A model generated the notes under the pieces. It had not been told where the DNA came from. It saw only the letters and a program-made list of their open reading frames with translations, and made no database searches. Positions 2,955-19,343 of a DNA stretch of 55,249 nucleotides are shown piece after piece. The DNA is from Prevotella sp. GTDB lineage: Bacteria > Bacteroidota > Bacteroidia > Bacteroidales > Bacteroidaceae. How positions within the stretch are numbered: the first letter of the stretch is position 1; each line of letters begins with the position of its first letter. The stretch is taken from contig JAFWQE010000024.1 in NCBI GenBank assembly GCA_017509155.1, positions 1 to 55,249 of the forward strand, in the 5' to 3' direction. A program made the position numbers and the translations under genes.

Positions 2955-5408
2955 ATGAAAATGAACAAAAGAAAACTAATGATTACTGGCTGCGTGCTCT
3001 CAGTCCTGAGTGTGGGCGCGCAGGTGCATCTGGACGTCGACGTGACTCAGCGTGGGGCCGCAGTGAGTCCGATGCTCTATGGCATCTTCTTTGAAGACAT
3101 CAACCATGCCGCCGACGGCGGACTCTATGCCGAACTCATTGGCAACCGCTCGTTTGAGGACAGCCAGAACAGCATACCTACGTGGAGCACTTATGTGTCG
3201 CCGGGCTCGAAGCTCACCACGAAGCTTGTTGACAAGGGCCTGCTCAACAAAGCACAGGGCAGGGCGCTGCAGATGGACATTGACGCCACGCCAATGGCAC
3301 CCGTCTGTCTGGTCAACGAAGGCTTCTGGGGCATCAATGCCGTGCAGGGACGTAGCTACAAGCTGTCGTTCTGGGCAAAAGGAAAATACAAGGGAAACCT
3401 GACGGCCTGTCTCTCCAATGCCGACGGCAGCAAGATCTTTGCCGAGACAAGGGTGGAGAAACAGATTGGGAAGACTTGGACGAAATACGAAGCCACGCTG
3501 CTCTCAAACGGCAACGACGACAAGGCACAGTTTTCGCTGGTGGCCGATGGAAAGGGTACCATCACCATCGACGTGGTGTCGCTTTTCCCACCCACGTTCA
3601 GAAACCGACCCAACGGCTGCCGTCCAGACCTGGCCGAACTGCTGTTGCAGCTGAAGCCCAAGTTCATGCGCTTCCCGGGCGGATGCTATGTGGAAGGGCA
3701 GGAGAGTCCCGACAATGCCTTCCACTGGGAAAAGACCATCGGTCCCATCGAGGAGCGGCCCGGACATCTGAACCGTAACTGGAACTACCGCACCAGCGAC
3801 GGACTGGGCTTCCACGAGTTTCTCCAGCTGAGCGAAGACCTGGGAGCAAAGCCGCTCTATGTCGTCAATGTCGGCCTGTGGCATGGTGGGCTCACGCCGG
3901 TGGAAGAGCTGCAGCCATGGATTGACGAGTGTCTCAACGCGCTGGAGTATGCCAACGGCGACGTCACCACAAAGTATGGTGCGCTGCGCGCCAGGAACGG
4001 ACACCCGGCGCCCTTCAACATTGAGTACCTGGAAATAGGCAACGAGAACAACCAGCCCGTGCCCGAACAGCAGAGCGACCGCTACTATGAGCGCTACAAG
4101 CTGTTCAAGGATGCCGTGTTGGCCAAATATCCCAACATGCACCTCATTGGCAATGTCGTGGCATGGGGCGACGACAATCCCACATGGGACAGCGACGAGG
4201 CCGTGGAGCTGCTCGACGAGCATTACTACCGCAATCCGGCATGGTTTACCGACAATTTCCACAAATACGACAGCTACAGGCGTGGCGGAGCCGCCGTCTA
4301 TTGCGGCGAGTATGCCGTCACGCAAGGCTTTGGCAGAGTGGGAAACCTGAACGCTGCGCTTGGCGAGGCCGTCTTTATGATGGGCATGGAAAACAATTCC
4401 GATGTGGTCAGCATGGCCAGCTATGCGCCCATCTTCGTCAACGAGAACAACGTGGCATGGCAACCCGACATGATCAGGTTCAACTCTTCACGCGTCATGT
4501 GCACGCCATCTTACTATGTGCAGAAACTCATGGCCCACCACGTCGGTACGCAGATGGTGAAGGTCACGCAGCACAATCCTTACGTCATGGAGCAGGAGTC
4601 TGTCCGCAGGCCAGAGGCCGTTCGTGTGGGACTGGGCTCATGGGCAACGGGTGTTTCCTTCCGTGACGTCAAGGTGACCATGCCGGAAGTAACCGTCGAG
4701 GATGATGGCAAGGACATGGCAACTTTTGAGAACCTCAAGGGAGACTGGACCGTGAAGGATGGCATTATCCGACAGGGCAGCAAGGCCGAAGCCTGTCTGC
4801 TCGTCCACAAGGTTCCCGTTGCTGCGTCGAAATACTCGTTCACCTGCAAGGCCAGAAAGGATGATGGCGCCGAGGGATTCCTTGTCGTCTTCAACTACGT
4901 CAATCAGGATAACTACTGCTGGTTCAACCTCGGCGGATGGGGCAACGGGCAGCATGGTCTGGAGAAGGTAGCCGACGGTGCCAAGGGACAGGTCGCCACG
5001 GCTCCCGGCACCGTAGAGAGCGGACGTTGGTATGACGTGCGTGTGGATGTGGAGGGCGACAGCGTGACCTGCTATCTGGACAATGCCCAGATGTTTGCTA
5101 CGCGTTTCAAGGAGAACGTCAGTGCAGGACTGTTCAGCAACGCTGCCATCGACGAGACCACGGGCGAGCTGATACTGAAGGTTGTCAACACAGCCTCCAA
5201 CAGCACAACAGCCTGTATTGACCTGAATGACTTCGAGGCAAGCAGTGCCCGCATCATCCGTCTTGGCGCCGCCAGCGGTCTGGCCGAGAACACGATAGAT
5301 GCACCCACGACGGTCTATCCCGTGGAGAGCCACCTGTGTGTTGAGGGCAGCAGTCTGACAATCGACGTGCCTGCCTATTCGCTCAGCATCATCAGACTGA
5401 AGCCATGA
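2955..5408 (+). CDS. Secreted GH51 alpha-L-arabinofuranosidase
   Basis: An 817-residue glycoside hydrolase of family 51, which releases arabinofuranose side chains from arabinan or arabinoxylan. Residues 1-22 are a signal peptide. SPMLYGIFFEDINHAADGG marks the start of the mature protein; about 60-215 look like a carbohydrate-binding module of the CBM4/9 type; the TIM barrel follows from about 220. Glu364 (EIGNEN) fits the acid/base and Glu452 (YCGEYAV) the nucleophile. About 570-710 is an inserted beta-sandwich (ATFENLKGDWTVKDGIIRQG) resembling the keto-disaccharide hydrolase/LamG fold, and the C-terminal beta-domain closes the protein. No SusC/SusD genes are adjacent, so it is an isolated hydrolase rather than part of a visible polysaccharide utilisation locus. 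Confidence 0.93.
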   Translation: MKMNKRKLMITGCVLSVLSVGAQVHLDVDVTQRGAAVSPMLYGIFFEDINHAADGGLYAELIGNRSFEDSQNSIPTWSTYVSPGSKLTTKLVDKGLLNKAQGRALQMDIDATPMAPVCLVNEGFWGINAVQGRSYKLSFWAKGKYKGNLTACLSNADGSKIFAETRVEKQIGKTWTKYEATLLSNGNDDKAQFSLVADGKGTITIDVVSLFPPTFRNRPNGCRPDLAELLLQLKPKFMRFPGGCYVEGQESPDNAFHWEKTIGPIEERPGHLNRNWNYRTSDGLGFHEFLQLSEDLGAKPLYVVNVGLWHGGLTPVEELQPWIDECLNALEYANGDVTTKYGALRARNGHPAPFNIEYLEIGNENNQPVPEQQSDRYYERYKLFKDAVLAKYPNMHLIGNVVAWGDDNPTWDSDEAVELLDEHYYRNPAWFTDNFHKYDSYRRGGAAVYCGEYAVTQGFGRVGNLNAALGEAVFMMGMENNSDVVSMASYAPIFVNENNVAWQPDMIRFNSSRVMCTPSYYVQKLMAHHVGTQMVKVTQHNPYVMEQESVRRPEAVRVGLGSWATGVSFRDVKVTMPEVTVEDDGKDMATFENLKGDWTVKDGIIRQGSKAEACLLVHKVPVAASKYSFTCKARKDDGAEGFLVVFNYVNQDNYCWFNLGGWGNGQHGLEKVADGAKGQVATAPGTVESGRWYDVRVDVEGDSVTCYLDNAQMFATRFKENVSAGLFSNAAIDETTGELILKVVNTASNSTTACIDLNDFEASSARIIRLGAASGLAENTIDAPTTVYPVESHLCVEGSSLTIDVPAYSLSIIRLKP

Positions 5409-6456: not shown

Positions 6457-8949
6457 TCAGAACCTCAGCGTCAGGCTGCCCATGGCGGTGAAGCCTGCCA
6501 TCGGGATGAAGCCTATCTGGTAGTAGCGGTTGTCGGGCGTGTGGCCGTAGCTTTCGGCAATGGCCGAGTACACCCATCCGCTGCTGGCGTAGTGAGCGTC
6601 GAAGATGTTGTTCAGATTCAGGCCGAACACGGCTTCCTTCACGCCCATCTTCTTCAGTGGCAGCGTATAGCTCAGGCTGACATTTGTGGTGGAGTAGGAG
6701 GGCAGCGAACGGTCCTTGTTCTCGGTGTTGTCCAGATACTGCCGACTCACATAGCCCGTGTGCCACACGGCCTGCAAGCCTTTGTAGTGCACGTTGACGA
6801 AACCGTTGAGAATGGCCGATGGCGAGAACGCCAGCGTGGAGTTGTCGTAGTGGAACTGGCGCAGCTCGTCGCCGTTGCCGTCGCAGTGATATTTAGCGGC
6901 ATCTGCATTTCCTTCCCAGTCGTCCCAGTCCTCCACAAACTCGTCGAAGTCTCTGATCTTGTTCTGGCTCAGCGCAGCGTTGCCTTCCAGCGTCAGCCAT
7001 GGCGTCAGGTCCCAGCCGGCAGTCAGTTCCACGCCCATGCGGTAGGAGTCCTTGATGTTGGTGGTCAGGTTCTCGCCGATGTCGCTCTGCTGGCCCGTCT
7101 GAACAAACTGGTCGTTGTAGTCCATGTAGTAGAGATTCACGCCGGCGCGGAACGTCTGCGACGAGTAGTTGTAGCCAAGTTCGAAGTCCATCAGCTCTTC
7201 GGCCACTGGTGCAGGATAGTTGCCGTTGTCGGTGAAGTTGTTGCGCTCGGGCTCCCTGTGGCTCAGTGCCACCGAGGCAAAGGCGTGGTGGCCGCCCTGG
7301 TGGAAGCTGAAGCCGGCCTTCGGGTTCAGGAAGTCATACTTCTTGTCTATGTCGAGCATGTGTTTCTCGTAGAGCCAGGTCTGCGTGTTGTAGACGAACT
7401 TGTCGTTGTATCCGTCGGTCTTGTAGCCCACGTGGCGATACTGCATGTCGGCGAAGGCATCCCACTGCTCGTTGATGTGGAACGTGGCTTTCACGAATGC
7501 ACTTCCGTCCAGTTTCCTTGCGTCGCTGTCGTAGTACTGGTAGTCGCCGTCTTTCATGAGCAGGCTGCGCAGCTGGTCGTTGCTCAGGTAGGTGGCGTAG
7601 CCGAAGTGTCTGCCGTCGAACTGCTGCACCGACAGTCCGCCCACGATGTTCCAGTCCTCGTCGTCGTAGCTCAGGTTCCAAATCAGTCCGTAGACATCCT
7701 GGCTCAGCCCTTTCTTGCGCACCCAGTCGGTTCGCTTCACTCCGTCGAGCGCGTCGCCGTTCACGTCGGCATTGGGCAGGCCCAGCTTCTTGATCTTGTT
7801 CTGTGGGCGGAATTCATTGTAGTAGCCGTAGCCGTGGGTGTAGTGCAGCGTTGCGGTGGTGCTCCAGCGTTCGCTCAGGTTCCATGCACCGGTCAGGATG
7901 TTGTGGTTCTGCCAGAAGTTGTCGGTGGCTTTGGGCCAGTAGGAGCCGTCGTTCATCGTGTATCGCTGTGTCTGGTAGTTTCCGCTGGCGTCCTTCACGA
8001 AGTTGCCGTCGGCATCGGTGGCCAGCTGTTCGTAGAGCGAGTTGTAGCGCCCGAGTCCCACCTTGTAGAGGTCTGCGTAGGTCTTGATGCCGGTCTTTCC
8101 GCCGTATGTGCCGTCCATCAGGCTCAGGTCGTCGTTGCCGGCCGTCACGCCGTTCCATGCCTGTCCCGTCTTCTCGAAGTTGCCGATGTGCTTGAATCGT
8201 ATGCTGAAGTTGTCGCCGATCCACGACAGTCCGCCATAATAGCTGCCCGAGCGTCCGCTTGTGCCGTGTATATATCCGTCGGTGTTGGTCTCATGATAGG
8301 CGCCGTCGATGATGAAATGGTTCCACAGGAGTCCCGTGGAGAACGACCCTCCCGCGTTGAACGTGTTGTATGAGCCATATGAGAAGCTCACCTCGCCGCC
8401 CGCCTTTGTCGATGGCGCTTTCGACGAGAGCGAGATGGTTCCGCCAAAGGCACCGTCGCCGTTGGTCGATGTTCCCACGCCGCGCTGTATCTGTGCGCCG
8501 CCCAGCAGCGAGCCATACGAGTTCATGTTAGCCCAGAACACGGTCTGGTCCTCGGGTGAGTTCAAGGGCACGCCGTCAAGCGTCACGTTGATGCGTGATC
8601 CTGCTGCACCGCGAATGCGCATGTAGGTGGTTCCCGTGCCCACGCCGTTCTCGCTCCAGGCCAGCACGCCGGGAGTCTGCGCGAACAGGAAGGGCAGCTC
8701 CTGACCCGTCTTCGAGAAGGTGGCCAGCTCCTCTTTCTTCAGGTTGGCCACCGCAAAGGGAGCATTCTTTGGCGCCCAAACGCCACGAACCACCACCTCC
8801 TGCATCTGTTCCAGACGCAGCGAGTCGTCGGGTTCACCCGCGGTGGCGCACTGTCCTTCCATCGGCAACATGGCCGCCATGCCTATGGCAACCACTGAAA
8901 ACATTCTTTTTACTTTCTTTTCCACAATACTTGAATTTGAGTAATACAT
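6457..8949 (-). CDS. TonB-dependent outer-membrane receptor, thiamin-regulated
   Basis: An 830-residue TonB-dependent receptor. A signal peptide runs to about residue 36, with basic residues KKVKR before the hydrophobic stretch, which favours the start at 8949 over the internal Met at 8904. The plug domain (about 45-175) has EVVVRGVW, the RIRGAAGSRINVTLDGVPLN motif and the QRGVGTSTNGDGAFGGT segment. The rest is a beta-barrel ending in GSLTLRF with the terminal Phe required for outer-membrane insertion. No carboxypeptidase-like N-terminal extension is present, unlike SusC. It follows a TPP riboswitch and precedes pnuT, so import of thiamin or a precursor across the outer membrane is the inferred role. 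Confidence 0.9.
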   Translation of the reverse strand: MYYSNSSIVEKKVKRMFSVVAIGMAAMLPMEGQCATAGEPDDSLRLEQMQEVVVRGVWAPKNAPFAVANLKKEELATFSKTGQELPFLFAQTPGVLAWSENGVGTGTTYMRIRGAAGSRINVTLDGVPLNSPEDQTVFWANMNSYGSLLGGAQIQRGVGTSTNGDGAFGGTISLSSKAPSTKAGGEVSFSYGSYNTFNAGGSFSTGLLWNHFIIDGAYHETNTDGYIHGTSGRSGSYYGGLSWIGDNFSIRFKHIGNFEKTGQAWNGVTAGNDDLSLMDGTYGGKTGIKTYADLYKVGLGRYNSLYEQLATDADGNFVKDASGNYQTQRYTMNDGSYWPKATDNFWQNHNILTGAWNLSERWSTTATLHYTHGYGYYNEFRPQNKIKKLGLPNADVNGDALDGVKRTDWVRKKGLSQDVYGLIWNLSYDDEDWNIVGGLSVQQFDGRHFGYATYLSNDQLRSLLMKDGDYQYYDSDARKLDGSAFVKATFHINEQWDAFADMQYRHVGYKTDGYNDKFVYNTQTWLYEKHMLDIDKKYDFLNPKAGFSFHQGGHHAFASVALSHREPERNNFTDNGNYPAPVAEELMDFELGYNYSSQTFRAGVNLYYMDYNDQFVQTGQQSDIGENLTTNIKDSYRMGVELTAGWDLTPWLTLEGNAALSQNKIRDFDEFVEDWDDWEGNADAAKYHCDGNGDELRQFHYDNSTLAFSPSAILNGFVNVHYKGLQAVWHTGYVSRQYLDNTENKDRSLPSYSTTNVSLSYTLPLKKMGVKEAVFGLNLNNIFDAHYASSGWVYSAIAESYGHTPDNRYYQIGFIPMAGFTAMGSLTLRF

Positions 8950-8977: not shown

Positions 8978-8999
8978 CGGCTCGCAAAAAGTTGAGCCG
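8978..8999 (-). promoter_or_regulatory. Expression-platform hairpin of the TPP riboswitch
   Basis: On the minus strand CGGCTC and GAGCCG form a 6-bp stem around AACTTTTTGC just after the aptamer. There is no T-tract behind it, so I infer control of translation or RNA accessibility rather than a simple terminator. Confidence 0.45.
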
Positions 9000-9001
9000 A
9001 A

Positions 9002-9073
9002 ATCCCTACGCCGGCATTACCCGGATCAGGTTCGAGGGTCTAATCTCAGCCTGCCCACGGCAGACACCCCTTA
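9002..9073 (-). promoter_or_regulatory. TPP (THI-element) riboswitch
   Basis: The minus strand carries the conserved THI-box blocks in order: GGGGTGTC, CTGAGATTAGACCCTCGAAC, CTGATCCGGGTAATGCCGGC and GTAGGGA. These are the aptamer segments that bind thiamin pyrophosphate. It lies about 50 nt upstream of the TonB receptor start, so high TPP is expected to shut down the receptor and pnuT. Confidence 0.95.
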
Positions 9074-9096
9074 ACTTACCGTTTGTAAGTCGGGTG

Positions 9097-9896: not shown

Positions 9897-9930
9897 AAAA
9901 AAAAAGCGGGACACGTTGTCGTGCCCCGCC
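9897..9930 (-). terminator. Intrinsic terminator of the outer-membrane protein gene
   Basis: On the minus strand GCGGGGCACG-acaa-CGTGTCCCGC forms a 10-bp stem with one mismatch, followed by nine T residues. It lies 27 bp after the stop codon of the gene ending at 9956. Confidence 0.9.
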
Positions 9931-9955
9931 TTTAAGCTGTTATGAACTCCGCTGA

Positions 9956-10504
9956 TTAGAAGTTGTAGTACAGTCCGAATGTCAGGTTGTTGCCATCGAG
10001 GTCGACGCCAACATTGGTGCTGTTGTCGATGCCGTCCTGCTTCGGGCTGAACGAGTCGAAGCCGATGAAGCCGAAGTGAGCCACAAAGCTCAGCTTTTCG
10101 TTCAGGTTCACGGCCACACCGGGCTTCAGACCGAGCTGGAACTCAGTGCCATAGTCCTTAAAGCTGCCAAGACCCACGGTGCCGTCGATGAAGACATTCA
10201 CATACTTGTTCTTTACGCAGGTGTAGCGGGCATACGGGTTCACCTGCAGCAGCTCTGTCTCGACATCCTGTCCGAAACTACCGTGGAGCAGGTCGCAAGC
10301 ACCCTTCTGGTAACCCACGGCAACACCAATCGACCAGTCGTCGTTGAGCGTGTAACCGAAGTCGGGCACGAACTTATAGACGGTCTCTGCGTCAGCATTG
10401 CCGTTCTTCACGCTGGCCACACCAACGCTACCACCAAGATACCACTGTGCATTTGCTGTGATTGCGCTCAGGGCAATCACCATTGTCATCAGAATCTTTT
10501 TCAT
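9956..10504 (-). CDS. Small outer-membrane beta-barrel protein
   Basis: A 182-residue protein with a clear signal peptide (MKKILMTMVIALSAITANAQ). The mature part has alternating amphipathic strands (WYLGGSVGVASVK, DWSIGVAVGYQKG, YVNVFIDGTVGLGSF) and ends in LTFGLYYNF, typical of the OmpA-like/porin-like barrels of Bacteroidota with about eight strands. Function beyond outer-membrane placement cannot be read from the sequence. Monocistronic: TACTTTTG on the minus strand upstream and a strong terminator downstream. Confidence 0.85.
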   Translation of the reverse strand: MKKILMTMVIALSAITANAQWYLGGSVGVASVKNGNADAETVYKFVPDFGYTLNDDWSIGVAVGYQKGACDLLHGSFGQDVETELLQVNPYARYTCVKNKYVNVFIDGTVGLGSFKDYGTEFQLGLKPGVAVNLNEKLSFVAHFGFIGFDSFSPKQDGIDNSTNVGVDLDGNNLTFGLYYNF

Positions 10505-12118: not shown

Positions 12119-12228
12119 CCCTCAACCCCAGTACCATTCCCTTGAAGAGAGGAAATCGCCCTGCGGCTTGGTTTTCCGGCGGTAGCCACTCCCCTCCCTT
12201 CAAGGGGAGGGGTCAGGGGTGGGGTCTG
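12119..12228. repeat. GC-rich palindromic element (REP-like)
   Basis: CTCCCCTCCCTTCAAGGGGA and the following GGGGTGGGGT (12188-12225) match the element at 9706-9826. The preceding CTCAACCCCAGTACCATTCC (12121-12140) is a decayed inverted partner. It lies upstream of the HMA gene, between it and its likely promoter at 12277-12284 (minus-strand TAACTTTG), so it would be in that leader. Confidence 0.7.
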
Positions 12229-12284: not shown

Positions 12285-12458
12285 CGAAGTTTTCTCCACA
12301 ACAAAGAAAAACTCCGCCGTTTTTAAGAAAAAACCTCTTGAGTTGGTTGTTTTTTTTCTTTAAAGAACGAGAAATGTCGATGATTCCATGTGTTTTTGCA
12401 TCCCGCGTGTCTCGAAACAAATGCCTTCTGATGACGGGACATTTTTTTGTTCTTTTCC

Positions 12459-12489
12459 TTTGTCATTTCAAGAATAATCACTATCTTTG
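12459..12489 (+). promoter_or_regulatory. Promoter of the structured leader RNA
   Basis: TTTG (12459-12462), 19 bp, TATCTTTG (12482-12489): a full match to the Bacteroidota pattern. Predicted start near 12496, 350 nt before the first credible gene. Confidence 0.75.
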
Positions 12490-12495
12490 CACCGA

Positions 12496-12800
12496 CTCGA
12501 TGTAGCCCAGTGGGGCTCGCAGGTCAGTTTTCGTTGGAAAAAGGACGTTACGAACGTTATCTTTTGTGTGTGAATCTCGCAAATTCAATGTACCGAAAGA
12601 GACGCAACCGAACGTCCGCGTTGGGATTATTATACCCCGTCAACACCTTATTTATATAATAGGTGTGGCCATTAATGTATAATAATATTGGCGTGGGCTA
12701 ACTCGAGTTGCTTATCCTGGTACAAGGCAATGCGAGAGCCCACACACGGGATAAGCGAGTAGTAGAGACTCCCACGTCTTTCGCGTTTATACAGCCGCGA
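12496..12800 (+). ncRNA. Candidate structured RNA with H-type pseudoknot
   Basis: About 300 nt without a credible ORF after a strong promoter. Visible pairings: AGCCC/GGGCT (12504-12517); GGACGTT (12543-12549) with AACGTCC (12611-12617); ATTATTATAC (12626-12635) with GTATAATAAT (12677-12686), enclosing CACCT/AGGTG (12644-12665); GTGGGCT (12693-12699) with AGCCCAC (12737-12743). GCTTATCC (12710-12717), inside that last loop, pairs with GGATAAGC (12749-12756) outside it, extended by ACTC/GAGT. CGTGGG can instead pair with CCCACG (12771-12776). No terminator follows, so it may be a cis-acting leader of the 12850 operon or a processed RNA. I do not recognise the family. The rest of the gap (12229-12458) shows nothing beyond the HMA promoter. 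Confidence 0.5.
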
Positions 12801-12849
12801 CCTTATTACTAACCGCCGACTCCGGGTGTCTATAGGCATAAATTCCTTT

Positions 12850-13254
12850 ATGCGTATGTTATATGAACGTGAAAAGTCAGAACCTGAACAAAATCCTCTG
12901 TTCACAAAGGATAAGGAGGGTATCAAAAGATTGATTCAAACCAAGCTTAGCACTCTTATCTCTGAAGACAACTGTAACTGCATAAATGGGGCAGATATCG
13001 TTAAGGACAATGTTGGCGAAAAGGATTATCATATTGTCATAGATAGCATTGTTATTTCTGAGATTTTAGACCTTCAGCAGGAGGGAGAAAAGTGCATCGC
13101 GACAGGTACTCTTAAGGCAGATTACAAGAACGAAGATGGTAATGTTTTTCTGGAAAAAACCAGAAGATACTCGGCTGACATCATCATAGAAGAAAATGAG
13201 AATCATGAGGCAGAGATATCGAAAATAGTCAAATTCGTAATATTCTCATCGTGA
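12850..13254 (+). CDS. Small protein of unknown function
   Basis: A 134-residue soluble, acidic protein if it starts at the ATG at 12850; another ATG at 12856 is possible, and a GTG at 12826 would add eight residues. No signal peptide or membrane segment. It has a helical, charged N-terminus and beta-rich segments (YHIVIDSIVISEILDLQQ, CIATGTLKADYKN). It resembles no family I know. It is markedly more AT-rich than the window's housekeeping genes, which fits horizontal gain. It is followed after 31 bp by another small gene and then two secreted proteins; the spacing suggests one operon under the promoter at 12459. Confidence 0.6.
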   Translation: MRMLYEREKSEPEQNPLFTKDKEGIKRLIQTKLSTLISEDNCNCINGADIVKDNVGEKDYHIVIDSIVISEILDLQQEGEKCIATGTLKADYKNEDGNVFLEKTRRYSADIIIEENENHEAEISKIVKFVIFSS

Positions 13255-13285
13255 TAGAGTTTCATAATTAAATAGTTTAGTAGAG

Positions 13286-13549
13286 ATGGAAAACAACAAC
13301 TATCCAATAGTAGAATTTCAAATTGGTGATATTCATGCCGCTATTGAATATCCAAGAGAATTTAGTAATAATCTAATGGGAGAAGAAGATCCGTTAGCGT
13401 ATTATTTAAATTGTATTCTATCAGATACGGCGAAGAAGCAGCTAAAGAACATTAAAGTCTTCAATAAAAAAGGGGAACTTCTTTGTGAAACAAACGATAT
13501 AAAAACAATAGGTAGTCTCCTTGAACCTTCTAAGAATCATAAGTTATGA
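13286..13549 (+). CDS. Small protein translationally coupled to the dockerin protein
   Basis: An 87-residue cytosolic protein (MENNNYPIVEFQIGDIHAAI...) with no recognised domain. Its stop codon overlaps the start of the next gene as ATGA (13546-13549), strong evidence for translational coupling. A cytosolic protein coupled to an exported LRR/dockerin protein is unusual and could suggest a chaperone or regulator, but nothing in the sequence proves this. AT-rich like its upstream neighbour. Confidence 0.65.
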   Translation: MENNNYPIVEFQIGDIHAAIEYPREFSNNLMGEEDPLAYYLNCILSDTAKKQLKNIKVFNKKGELLCETNDIKTIGSLLEPSKNHKL

Positions 13550-18284: not shown

Positions 18285-19343
18285 ATGGTGACAGTAGCAA
18301 ATCCTATATACGACATCGTGTTCAAGTACCTGATGGAAGACGAGCGCATTGCTCGCACGATTCTGTCAGCTCTACTGAAGAAGGACATCACAAAAGTGGA
18401 GGTGCGTCCTCACGAGTATGCCAACGACAAGCGTGAGACGCTGTCGGTGTTCCGCATCGACTTCGGCGCCACGGTGCGCGAGCCTGACGGTAGCGAGCAC
18501 CTCATCTTGATAGAACTGCAGAAGACCTGGCTTGAGACGGAGACACTGCGTTTCCGCCAGTACCTTGGTGTGCAGTATCAGAATCCGAAGAACATCATAG
18601 CGGAGAGCCGCGACCGTCATGCCCTTCCCATGGTGGCGGTCTACTTGTTGGGCCATAAGGTGGGCGACATAGAGGAGCCTGTTCTCTATGTGCACCGCGA
18701 CTCATTTGACTATAACGGCCAGTTGGTGACGAAAGGTATTCCCAATGCCTTTGTGGACAGCCTGACACACGACAGCATTATCGTGCAGATACCTCGCCTA
18801 CACGGCCAGATAAACACGCGTCTGGACAAGGTGCTGAGCATCTTCGACCAAACACGCAAGGACGTGGATAACCAACAGGTGCTGAATCTCGACGACACGC
18901 TCTACAGCGGTGACTCCGACATGGAGCACATCGTGCGGCGTCTGCTGATGGCTGCAACGAATGCAGACATGCGTATGGACATGAATGTAGAGGATGAGTA
19001 CTACTCGGCCATAGAAATGCGAGACACGGAAATCATGATGCGCGACCGTGAACTGGCAGAGCAGAAGGTTCAGTTGAATGAGCAGAAGGTTCAGTTGAAT
19101 GAGCAGAAGGTTCAGTTGAATGAGCAGAAGGTTCAGTTGAATGAGCAGAAGGTTCAGCTGAATGAGCAGAAGGTCCAGCTGAATGAGCAGAAGGTTCAAC
19201 TGAATGAGCAGAAGGTTCAACTTGAACAGAAAAATGCTCAACTGCGGTCTTCTTTGAAGATGCTTTTGGAAGCAGGACTTACGTTGCAGGCCATTGCTAA
19301 TTCTTGGAACATGGACGAGGAAGAACTCCGCCGTTTGCTTTGA
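18285..19343 (+). CDS. Rpn-family PD-(D/E)XK nuclease with variable coiled coil
   Basis: A 352-residue protein of the recombination-promoting nuclease/putative transposase family. The N-terminus (YDIVFKYLMEDERIARTILS) and the nuclease core FRIDFGATV...LILIELQKTW supply the D...E-x-Q pattern of PD-(D/E)XK enzymes (about residues 50-85). Residues 259-314 are eight heptads of the type EQKVQLN, giving a long coiled coil, followed by a short helical tail (MLLEAGLTLQAIANSWNMDE). Related proteins cleave DNA and have been linked to recombination and phage defence. The 21-bp DNA repeat under the heptads can gain or lose units without a frameshift. It stands alone with its own promoter, between a broken and an intact copy of a DUF1186-like 3' end. 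Confidence 0.85.
   Translation: MVTVANPIYDIVFKYLMEDERIARTILSALLKKDITKVEVRPHEYANDKRETLSVFRIDFGATVREPDGSEHLILIELQKTWLETETLRFRQYLGVQYQNPKNIIAESRDRHALPMVAVYLLGHKVGDIEEPVLYVHRDSFDYNGQLVTKGIPNAFVDSLTHDSIIVQIPRLHGQINTRLDKVLSIFDQTRKDVDNQQVLNLDDTLYSGDSDMEHIVRRLLMAATNADMRMDMNVEDEYYSAIEMRDTEIMMRDRELAEQKVQLNEQKVQLNEQKVQLNEQKVQLNEQKVQLNEQKVQLNEQKVQLNEQKVQLEQKNAQLRSSLKMLLEAGLTLQAIANSWNMDEEELRRLL
19059..19226 (+). repeat. Eight 21-bp in-frame repeats inside the Rpn gene
   Basis: Unit GAGCAGAAGGTTCAGTTGAA+T, eight copies from 19059; the first four are identical and later ones differ by silent changes (GTC for GTT, CTG or CAA CTG for CAG TTG). The repeat encodes the heptad EQKVQLN. Confidence 0.95.

Follow-up and report, generated by a model that had tools for sequence, protein, structure and literature searches.

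The DNA analysed here (the window) is the 55,249-nucleotide contig JAFWQE010000024.1 of Prevotella sp. assembly GCA_017509155.1, a source genome of 3.44 Mb in 229 contigs with 82% completeness and 6% contamination. On its forward strand lies an operon of at least four genes, the third of which encodes a large repeat protein, preceded by a long leader RNA that is the subject of this work. An initial annotation, made from the letters alone, had described a promoter followed by about 350 nt without a gene. Both were found at the locus: a promoter, which we take from its consensus to be of the Bacteroidota type, is followed by about 355 nt up to the first plausible start codon, an ATG at 12850. 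Positions 12493-12780 fold at -102.8 kcal/mol (z -5.68), and none of 200 shuffled sequences folded equally well; for the longer stretch up to 12850 the folding z was -4.06.

Relatives of the leader are widespread. Searching with blastn gave matches in 99 of 301 genomes of the family (E ≤0.001). A covariance model, R1, was built from an alignment (A1) of 30 cores, that of the window and those of 29 further loci, aligned without structure. R1 matched 203 of the 301 family genomes, covering 24 of 30 genera (E ≤0.01), and 54 of 344 order-level genomes, covering 34 of 194 genera and mostly belonging to other families (E ≤0.001); six of these 54, with best E values exceeding 1e-6, could be chance matches or fragments. 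Within a phylum-level sample of 345 genomes, R1 matched the source genome only. The surveys scored six candidates per genome, and copy numbers from them are lower bounds. Deeper scoring of seven genomes gave 3, 7, 3, 7, 5, 3, and 2 R1 matches, some of them weak. The source genome carries, on one contig (G000:C143), a clear further copy of 66.8 bits and a weak one of 25.9 bits; these two, at 4969-5233 (minus strand) and 9912-10112 (plus strand), lie about 5 kb apart on opposite strands (L069, L127, L314). R1-confirmed carriers include Phocaeicola massiliensis, Bacteroides bouchesdurhonensis, and Xylanibacter rarus, as well as assemblies labelled Prevotella, Bacteroidaceae, Muribaculaceae, or Parabacteroides. 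At least 80 genome loci were listed, and all 42 of those scored with R1 matched it.

Three loci in assemblies labelled Clostridia, Pseudobutyrivibrio, and Lachnospiraceae (L154, L157, and L158) hold the RNA at 190.9, 107.5, and 144.8 bits (R1); these may be misbinned Bacteroidales contigs or may reflect spread beyond the order. That the RNA belongs to a phage or plasmid element was rejected: blastn searches of phage and plasmid collections at E ≤1 were negative, and the one IMG/VR contig that held the sequence pattern (L248) had no R1 match at E ≤0.001.

For the comparative analysis, 87 of 90 rows were kept as the family set, including the window's own copy; the three removed were L071 and L080, which duplicate L030 and L034, and a second, weak match in L123, and L076, a duplicate of L026, lay outside the search. 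The order-level set comprises 40 loci, without a weak antisense match in L271. From these and the R1 loci, 85 diverse sequences were picked against near-duplicates: 38 of the 40 order-level loci (without L268 and L290), 34 family loci, and 13 of the 30 R1 loci. The cores are 213-293 nt long.

The place of the RNA in the transcript is well conserved. At 20-130 nt upstream of the core, a TAnnTTTG box occurs in 76 of 86 loci of the family and in 36 of 40 of the order-level set, compared with 6 of 85 control windows further upstream, and the predicted first open reading frame (ORF) starts 40-100 nt after the core at 69 of 87 and 32 of 40 loci, respectively. These data place the start of the predicted RNA right behind the promoter and its end a short way ahead of the first gene. 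That the region might itself encode a protein had been named as a refutation of the leader, and the cores show no conserved open frame: a stop-free frame occurs in just 16 of the 87 family and 3 of the 40 order-level cores, and core lengths modulo 3 (0/1/2) are distributed 37/45/45. The coding explanation was rejected.

The comparison revealed a structured core (Table 1). In the 85 diverse relatives, 92.1% of cells pair and 697 cells are changed on both sides, a result that none of 500 shuffles matched; together with the folding of the window's own leader, this rules out a chance fold, and it supplies the covariation for which a check on homologues had been suggested. The comparison shows that two interleaved sets of predicted helices are maintained by compensatory change. 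Fold A consists of two local hairpin domains, P3-P4-c and Pc-P3', and fold B is a long inter-domain duplex made of X, Z, Y, V, and ALT. Among the helices of fold A, P3 covaries in the 85 relatives (swap-test z 7.6), P4 reaches z 15.2, P3' pairs in 96.3% of cells with both-side changes in 11 of its 11 pairs (z 12.0), and Pc pairs in 98.1% of cells with both-side changes in 6 of 8 pairs (z 8.8). Among those of fold B, X and Y reach z 39.7 and 35.7 and covary in sequences outside model building, where X ranks at the top. Z, which joins the apical loop of the 5' hairpin to the loop of the 3' domain, pairs in 99.5% of cells with both-side changes in 4 of 7 pairs (z 13.7); V pairs in 96.2% (z 8.6) and ALT in 91.6% (z 6.6). 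Outside the core, the promoter-proximal hairpin P1 is variable in sequence, although the hairpin is usual among close relatives as judged by eye from the alignments.

Table 1. Predicted parts of the leader RNA and genes of the operon, in window coordinates.
Feature	Position	Strand	Sequence or content	Basis or remark
Promoter, Bacteroidota type	12459..12489	+	TTTG-N19-TATCTTTG	assumed from consensus
P1, promoter-proximal hairpin	12494..12525	+	GACTC..AGCCC/GGGCT..GTC	alignments, by eye
P3, closes 5' domain (fold A)	12543-12549 with 12611-12617	+		covariation
P3/P4 internal loop	12550-12559 and 12601-12610	+		invariant or near-invariant columns, 30-sequence alignment
P4 (fold A)	12560-12565 with 12595-12600	+		covariation
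Hairpin c, carried by P4 (fold A)	12572-12574 with 12584-12586	+		covariation
X, long-range (fold B)	12566-12571 with 12742-12747	+		covariation
Z (fold B)	12575-12581 with 12731-12737	+	TCTCGCA/TGCGAGA	covariation
Y, long-range (fold B)	12590-12594 with 12719-12723	+		covariation
V (fold B)	12604-12608 with 12707-12711	+	GCAAC/GTTGC	covariation
ALT (fold B)	12616-12620 with 12692-12696	+		covariation
Hairpin inside ALT	12621..12689	+	variable length and sequence	alignment, computed fold
Pc, closes 3' domain (fold A)	12690-12697 with 12771-12778	+	GGCGTGGG/CCCACGTC	
P3', 11 bp (fold A)	12708-12718 with 12748-12758	+		covariation
Place of U-tract after Pc	12779..12786	+	TTT only in window copy	
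W	12767-12773 with 12824-12830	+	GACTCCC/GGGTGTC	one mismatch in window
S, terminal hairpin	12815..12837	+	GCC..GGC	close before start codon; loop contains 3' arm of W
Gene 1, 134 aa	12850..13254	+		no Pfam match
Gene 2, 87 aa	13286..13549	+		no Pfam match
Gene 3, 908 aa	13546..16272	+	BspA-type leucine-rich repeats, four MBG stretches, dockerin	signal-peptide-like start (by eye)
Gene 4, 404 aa	16317..17531	+		no Pfam match; signal-peptide-like start (by eye)

Much of the initial annotation holds in this light. The nested stems enclosing a hairpin that it described are present and covary as P3, P4, and hairpin c, and the alternative pairing CGTGGG/CCCACG that it pointed out is Pc. Its broader proposal of a structured leader in cis with mutually exclusive pairings and outside the known RNA families is strongly supported, but the simple H-type pseudoknot that it drew is not the right picture: one stem has no comparative backing, and the other is part of a fold with two domains. 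The stem TTATCC/GGGATAA lies within P3', in the fold that competes with the long inter-domain duplex. The 7-bp stem GTGGGCT/AGCCCAC exists in the window, but most of the 30 aligned sequences keep only GGGCT/AGCC and its swap z is 0.5; neither it nor a GTTGC/GGCAA hairpin found support as a covarying helix in the swap test. The long-range helices X, Z, Y, V, and ALT and the start-proximal W and S were absent from that annotation.

The two folds exclude each other at defined places. V overlaps P3' at 12708-12711 and thereby excludes its base; the 3' arm of ALT is common to the 5' arm of Pc, two further ALT bases are common to P3, and ALT thus excludes Pc. The third conflict involves the start region, where W takes the CCC common to the 3' arm of Pc and so excludes the CCC end of that helix. 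W scored 16.05 for own arms versus 12.93 for swapped arms (standard deviation 0.27) in 87 loci, and 15.26 versus 13.02 (0.33) in 40 loci. S, tested at those 91 of 127 loci that gave a W score of at least 14, is supported as well (10.97 versus 9.71; 0.21). A run of at least five T follows Pc in 97 of 127 loci, compared with 9 of 635 control windows, and Pc therefore resembles a terminator. When the energies were computed for the 85 sequences, over 50% of the fold-B pairs formed in the unconstrained minimum free energy fold of the core in 81 of them, and over 50% of the fold-A pairs in one; the mean energies were -76.6 kcal/mol for forced fold A, -88.9 for forced fold B, and -96.3 without constraint. 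That covarying helices are missing from the structure computed as most stable is expected if fold A is metastable or held by a ligand.

The genes behind the RNA share no family: a Pfam scan of 71 of 77 listed first ORFs and 58 of 61 listed second ORFs, made without eight loci with a doubtful first ORF and without two more, L074 and L102, whose first ORFs have fewer than 45 aa, found none common to them. The commonest was the BspA-type leucine-rich repeat, in 6 of the first and 7 of the second ORFs. CXXX-repeat peptide precursors occur in 6 first ORFs, and matching radical SAM maturases in 2 second ORFs; the remaining families are scattered. By a simple signal-peptide rule of our own, 40 of the first and 41 of the second ORFs look exported; among ORFs of at least 150 aa, 72 of 90 downstream ones do, compared with 62 of 168 controls. 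Order-level downstream ORFs were judged by eye. At two loci of one genus (L301 and L312, genomes G249 and G293), the next long ORF, 235 and 241 nt past the core, is NusG/UpxY-like, with a Pfam NusG match of E 5.7e-8 on a 70-aa piece of one of them; a gene of this kind usually opens the capsule operons of Bacteroides. A general association with NusG/UpxY was followed from these two loci and was not seen: NusG was not among the 25 commonest of 74 Pfam families of first ORFs or the 25 commonest of 54 of second ORFs, and no NusG gene was recognised at the order-level loci in the reading by eye. Elsewhere in the window, a G/C-rich palindrome, CCCTCCCTTCAAGGGGAGGGG (12190-12212, plus strand), between a divergent gene and the promoter looks like a dispersed repeat, and its right part has no second site within the window at up to three mismatches. 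A 352-aa ORF (18285-19343, plus strand) contains seven exact in-frame LNEQKVQ heptad repeats and is possibly a length-variable coiled coil.

The leader had not been recognised as a known RNA family, and this agrees with our searches. The region 12300-13300 gave no match in the leader against Rfam 15 at E ≤10, the only two matches being to miRNA models upstream of the promoter and far below gathering scores; 20 divergent loci gave four matches, none of them at the RNA. The sole Rfam match in the window at gathering score is a thiamine pyrophosphate (TPP) riboswitch (RF00059, 62.8 bits, 8986-9081, minus strand), upstream of an 830-aa ORF (6457-8949, minus strand) that by eye resembles a TonB-dependent receptor. 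No paper listed in our literature searches described the leader RNA in its title or in the opening of its abstract, and it could have been described elsewhere. On comparative grounds, then, the leader is a cis-acting RNA family that is spread through Bacteroidales and is not in Rfam 15.

Several known systems resemble it in part. Transcription-attenuating riboswitches likewise combine a 5' leader position, a conserved core, mutually exclusive helices, and a stem with a U-tract, and place one architecture before varied genes; in our family, however, there is no gene theme, the two domains are complementary to each other, and no Rfam riboswitch matches. EAR (epsC) RNA, put RNA, and LoaP leaders make the transcription of long operons resistant to termination. 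The EAR (RF01735) and put RNAs are also structured, promoter-proximal leaders without a metabolite theme, but they belong to other taxa, our leader has no Rfam match, and a NusG-like gene closely behind was recognised at only two of the loci examined. The known UpxY-dependent leaders of Bacteroides capsule operons share with those two loci an untranslated leader before a NusG-like gene, and differ in that no NusG is among the commonest downstream families listed. Table 1 of PMC2864571 gives Bacteroidales-1 (RF01693), Bacteroides-1 (RF01694), and Bacteroid-trp (RF01692) as candidate structured RNAs of Bacteroidales or Bacteroidetes, and the leader region matches none of the three at E ≤10; the same table lists Bacteroides-2 and GUCCY-hairpin without an Rfam number. 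HMP2_1881, described in PMC8040213 as a 108-bp Bacteroidetes candidate RNA near radical SAM domains that was expressed 13 of 13 times, shares the taxon, and CXXX-repeat peptides and radical SAM maturases lie behind the RNA at some of our loci. Judged by its length, it would be at most a fragment of the leader RNA.

We consider it probable that the leader is a riboswitch-like bistable RNA in which fold A silences or ends transcription, fold B allows expression, and W adds control at the start codon. The position in cis, the covarying core, and the predicted exclusive helices ALT/Pc, V/P3', and W/Pc are, as far as sequences can tell, those expected of a riboswitch. The switch itself we infer, and its mode would be transcription attenuation, start-site pairing, or both. 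In the proposed mechanism, the hairpin domains would fold first, contact between the domains would begin through Z, the loop-loop helix whose sequence is most constrained, after which the nascent 3' strand would zip up fold B. A signal bound at the conserved P3/P4 internal loop, the candidate sensor site, would hold fold A instead. Pc and the U-tract of fold A would act like an intrinsic terminator (OFF), whereas fold B would capture the 5' arm of Pc and let RNA polymerase read through; the freed CUCCC arm could then form W with the loop ahead of the start codon, leading to translation control.

A number of observations weigh against this bistable switch. In 11 of the 85 sequences, including the second copy of the source genome, the computed energy favoured forced fold A over forced fold B. 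In close relatives X, Z, and Y share no bases with P4 and P3' but abut them like a four-way junction, and parts of A and B could therefore coexist as one pseudoknotted fold. Because the alignments A2, A5, and A6 were made to fit fold A, they show its helices in too favourable a light; in A1, made with MAFFT, the support for P4, c, and P3' is more modest and Pc is nearly invariant. Order-wide, pairing is limited to 77.4% of cells for X (its four contiguous pairs) and 75.3% for Y, and W, ALT, and V covary less strongly than X, Y, and Z; for V and ALT together, 33 of 500 shuffles equalled the number of pairs changed on both sides and 32 the number of such pair types, and the covariation controls model phylogeny only in part. 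The window copy has a weak U-tract (TTTCG) and a mismatched W whose best unbroken helix in the test is just 4 bp. Finally, a U-tract behind a stem that encloses a large structured loop of about 70 nt is not a classical terminator.

Other explanations overlap in part with the bistable switch, and the probabilities attached to them need not sum to one. One is a strict metabolite or ion riboswitch, in which the P3/P4 internal loop would bind one small molecule or ion and the regulon would follow the subject of that signal, for example envelope or nutrient status. The large and strongly conserved internal loop, the helices that exclude one another at the 3' end and ahead of the start codon, and the single architecture in front of unrelated genes all fit such an RNA, but the downstream genes have no common enzyme or transporter and point to no metabolite. 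We regard this reading as possible, though less likely than not. The same independence of gene content, together with the promoter-adjacent position, would also suit a general elongation or processing signal, that is, a leader to which an RNA-binding protein, a NusG paralogue, or the RNA polymerase is recruited so that the transcription of long operons withstands termination. The NusG/UpxY-like ORFs at L301 and L312 are a hint in this direction and not a rule, NusG being absent from the commonest downstream families listed above, and the closeness of W and S to the start codon points to local control. We regard a protein- or polymerase-directed leader as rather unlikely.

We find it similarly doubtful that the RNA is static, with fold A and X, Z, and Y formed together as a four-way-junction embrace of two hairpins that stabilises the 5' end or serves as a translation platform without switching. 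The abutting helices of close relatives allow such a structure, but V and P3', ALT and Pc, and W and Pc share bases while each covaries, and in one member from another family (L285, minus strand) the X and Y arms, as read by eye, extend into P4 bases in direct competition with P4. A small RNA that is freed from the leader to act in trans, the downstream gene being incidental, seems very improbable. The core does end in a helix and a U-tract like stand-alone RNAs, but its spacing to the ORF is similar in most loci and W and S covary between the core and the start region, suggesting that the leader is tied to the downstream gene.

Bacteroidales are among the main bacteria of the gut and rumen, and to our knowledge few RNA switches are known from them. 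An order-wide regulon rich in exported proteins of gut and rumen Bacteroidales may stand under this one bistable RNA and one common signal, which would alternate between a pair of hairpin domains and an extended duplex within the molecule that is begun by loop-loop contact; we hold this joint reading to be plausible, though short of probable. If it is true, a leader shared by exported proteins, leucine-rich-repeat surface proteins, and peptide genes would mean that a common signal governs what these bacteria display to their host and neighbours. Two complementary hairpins with two covarying folds would also make a clean case for co-transcriptional switching, and the comparative data are rich enough for the immediate design of compensatory mutants.
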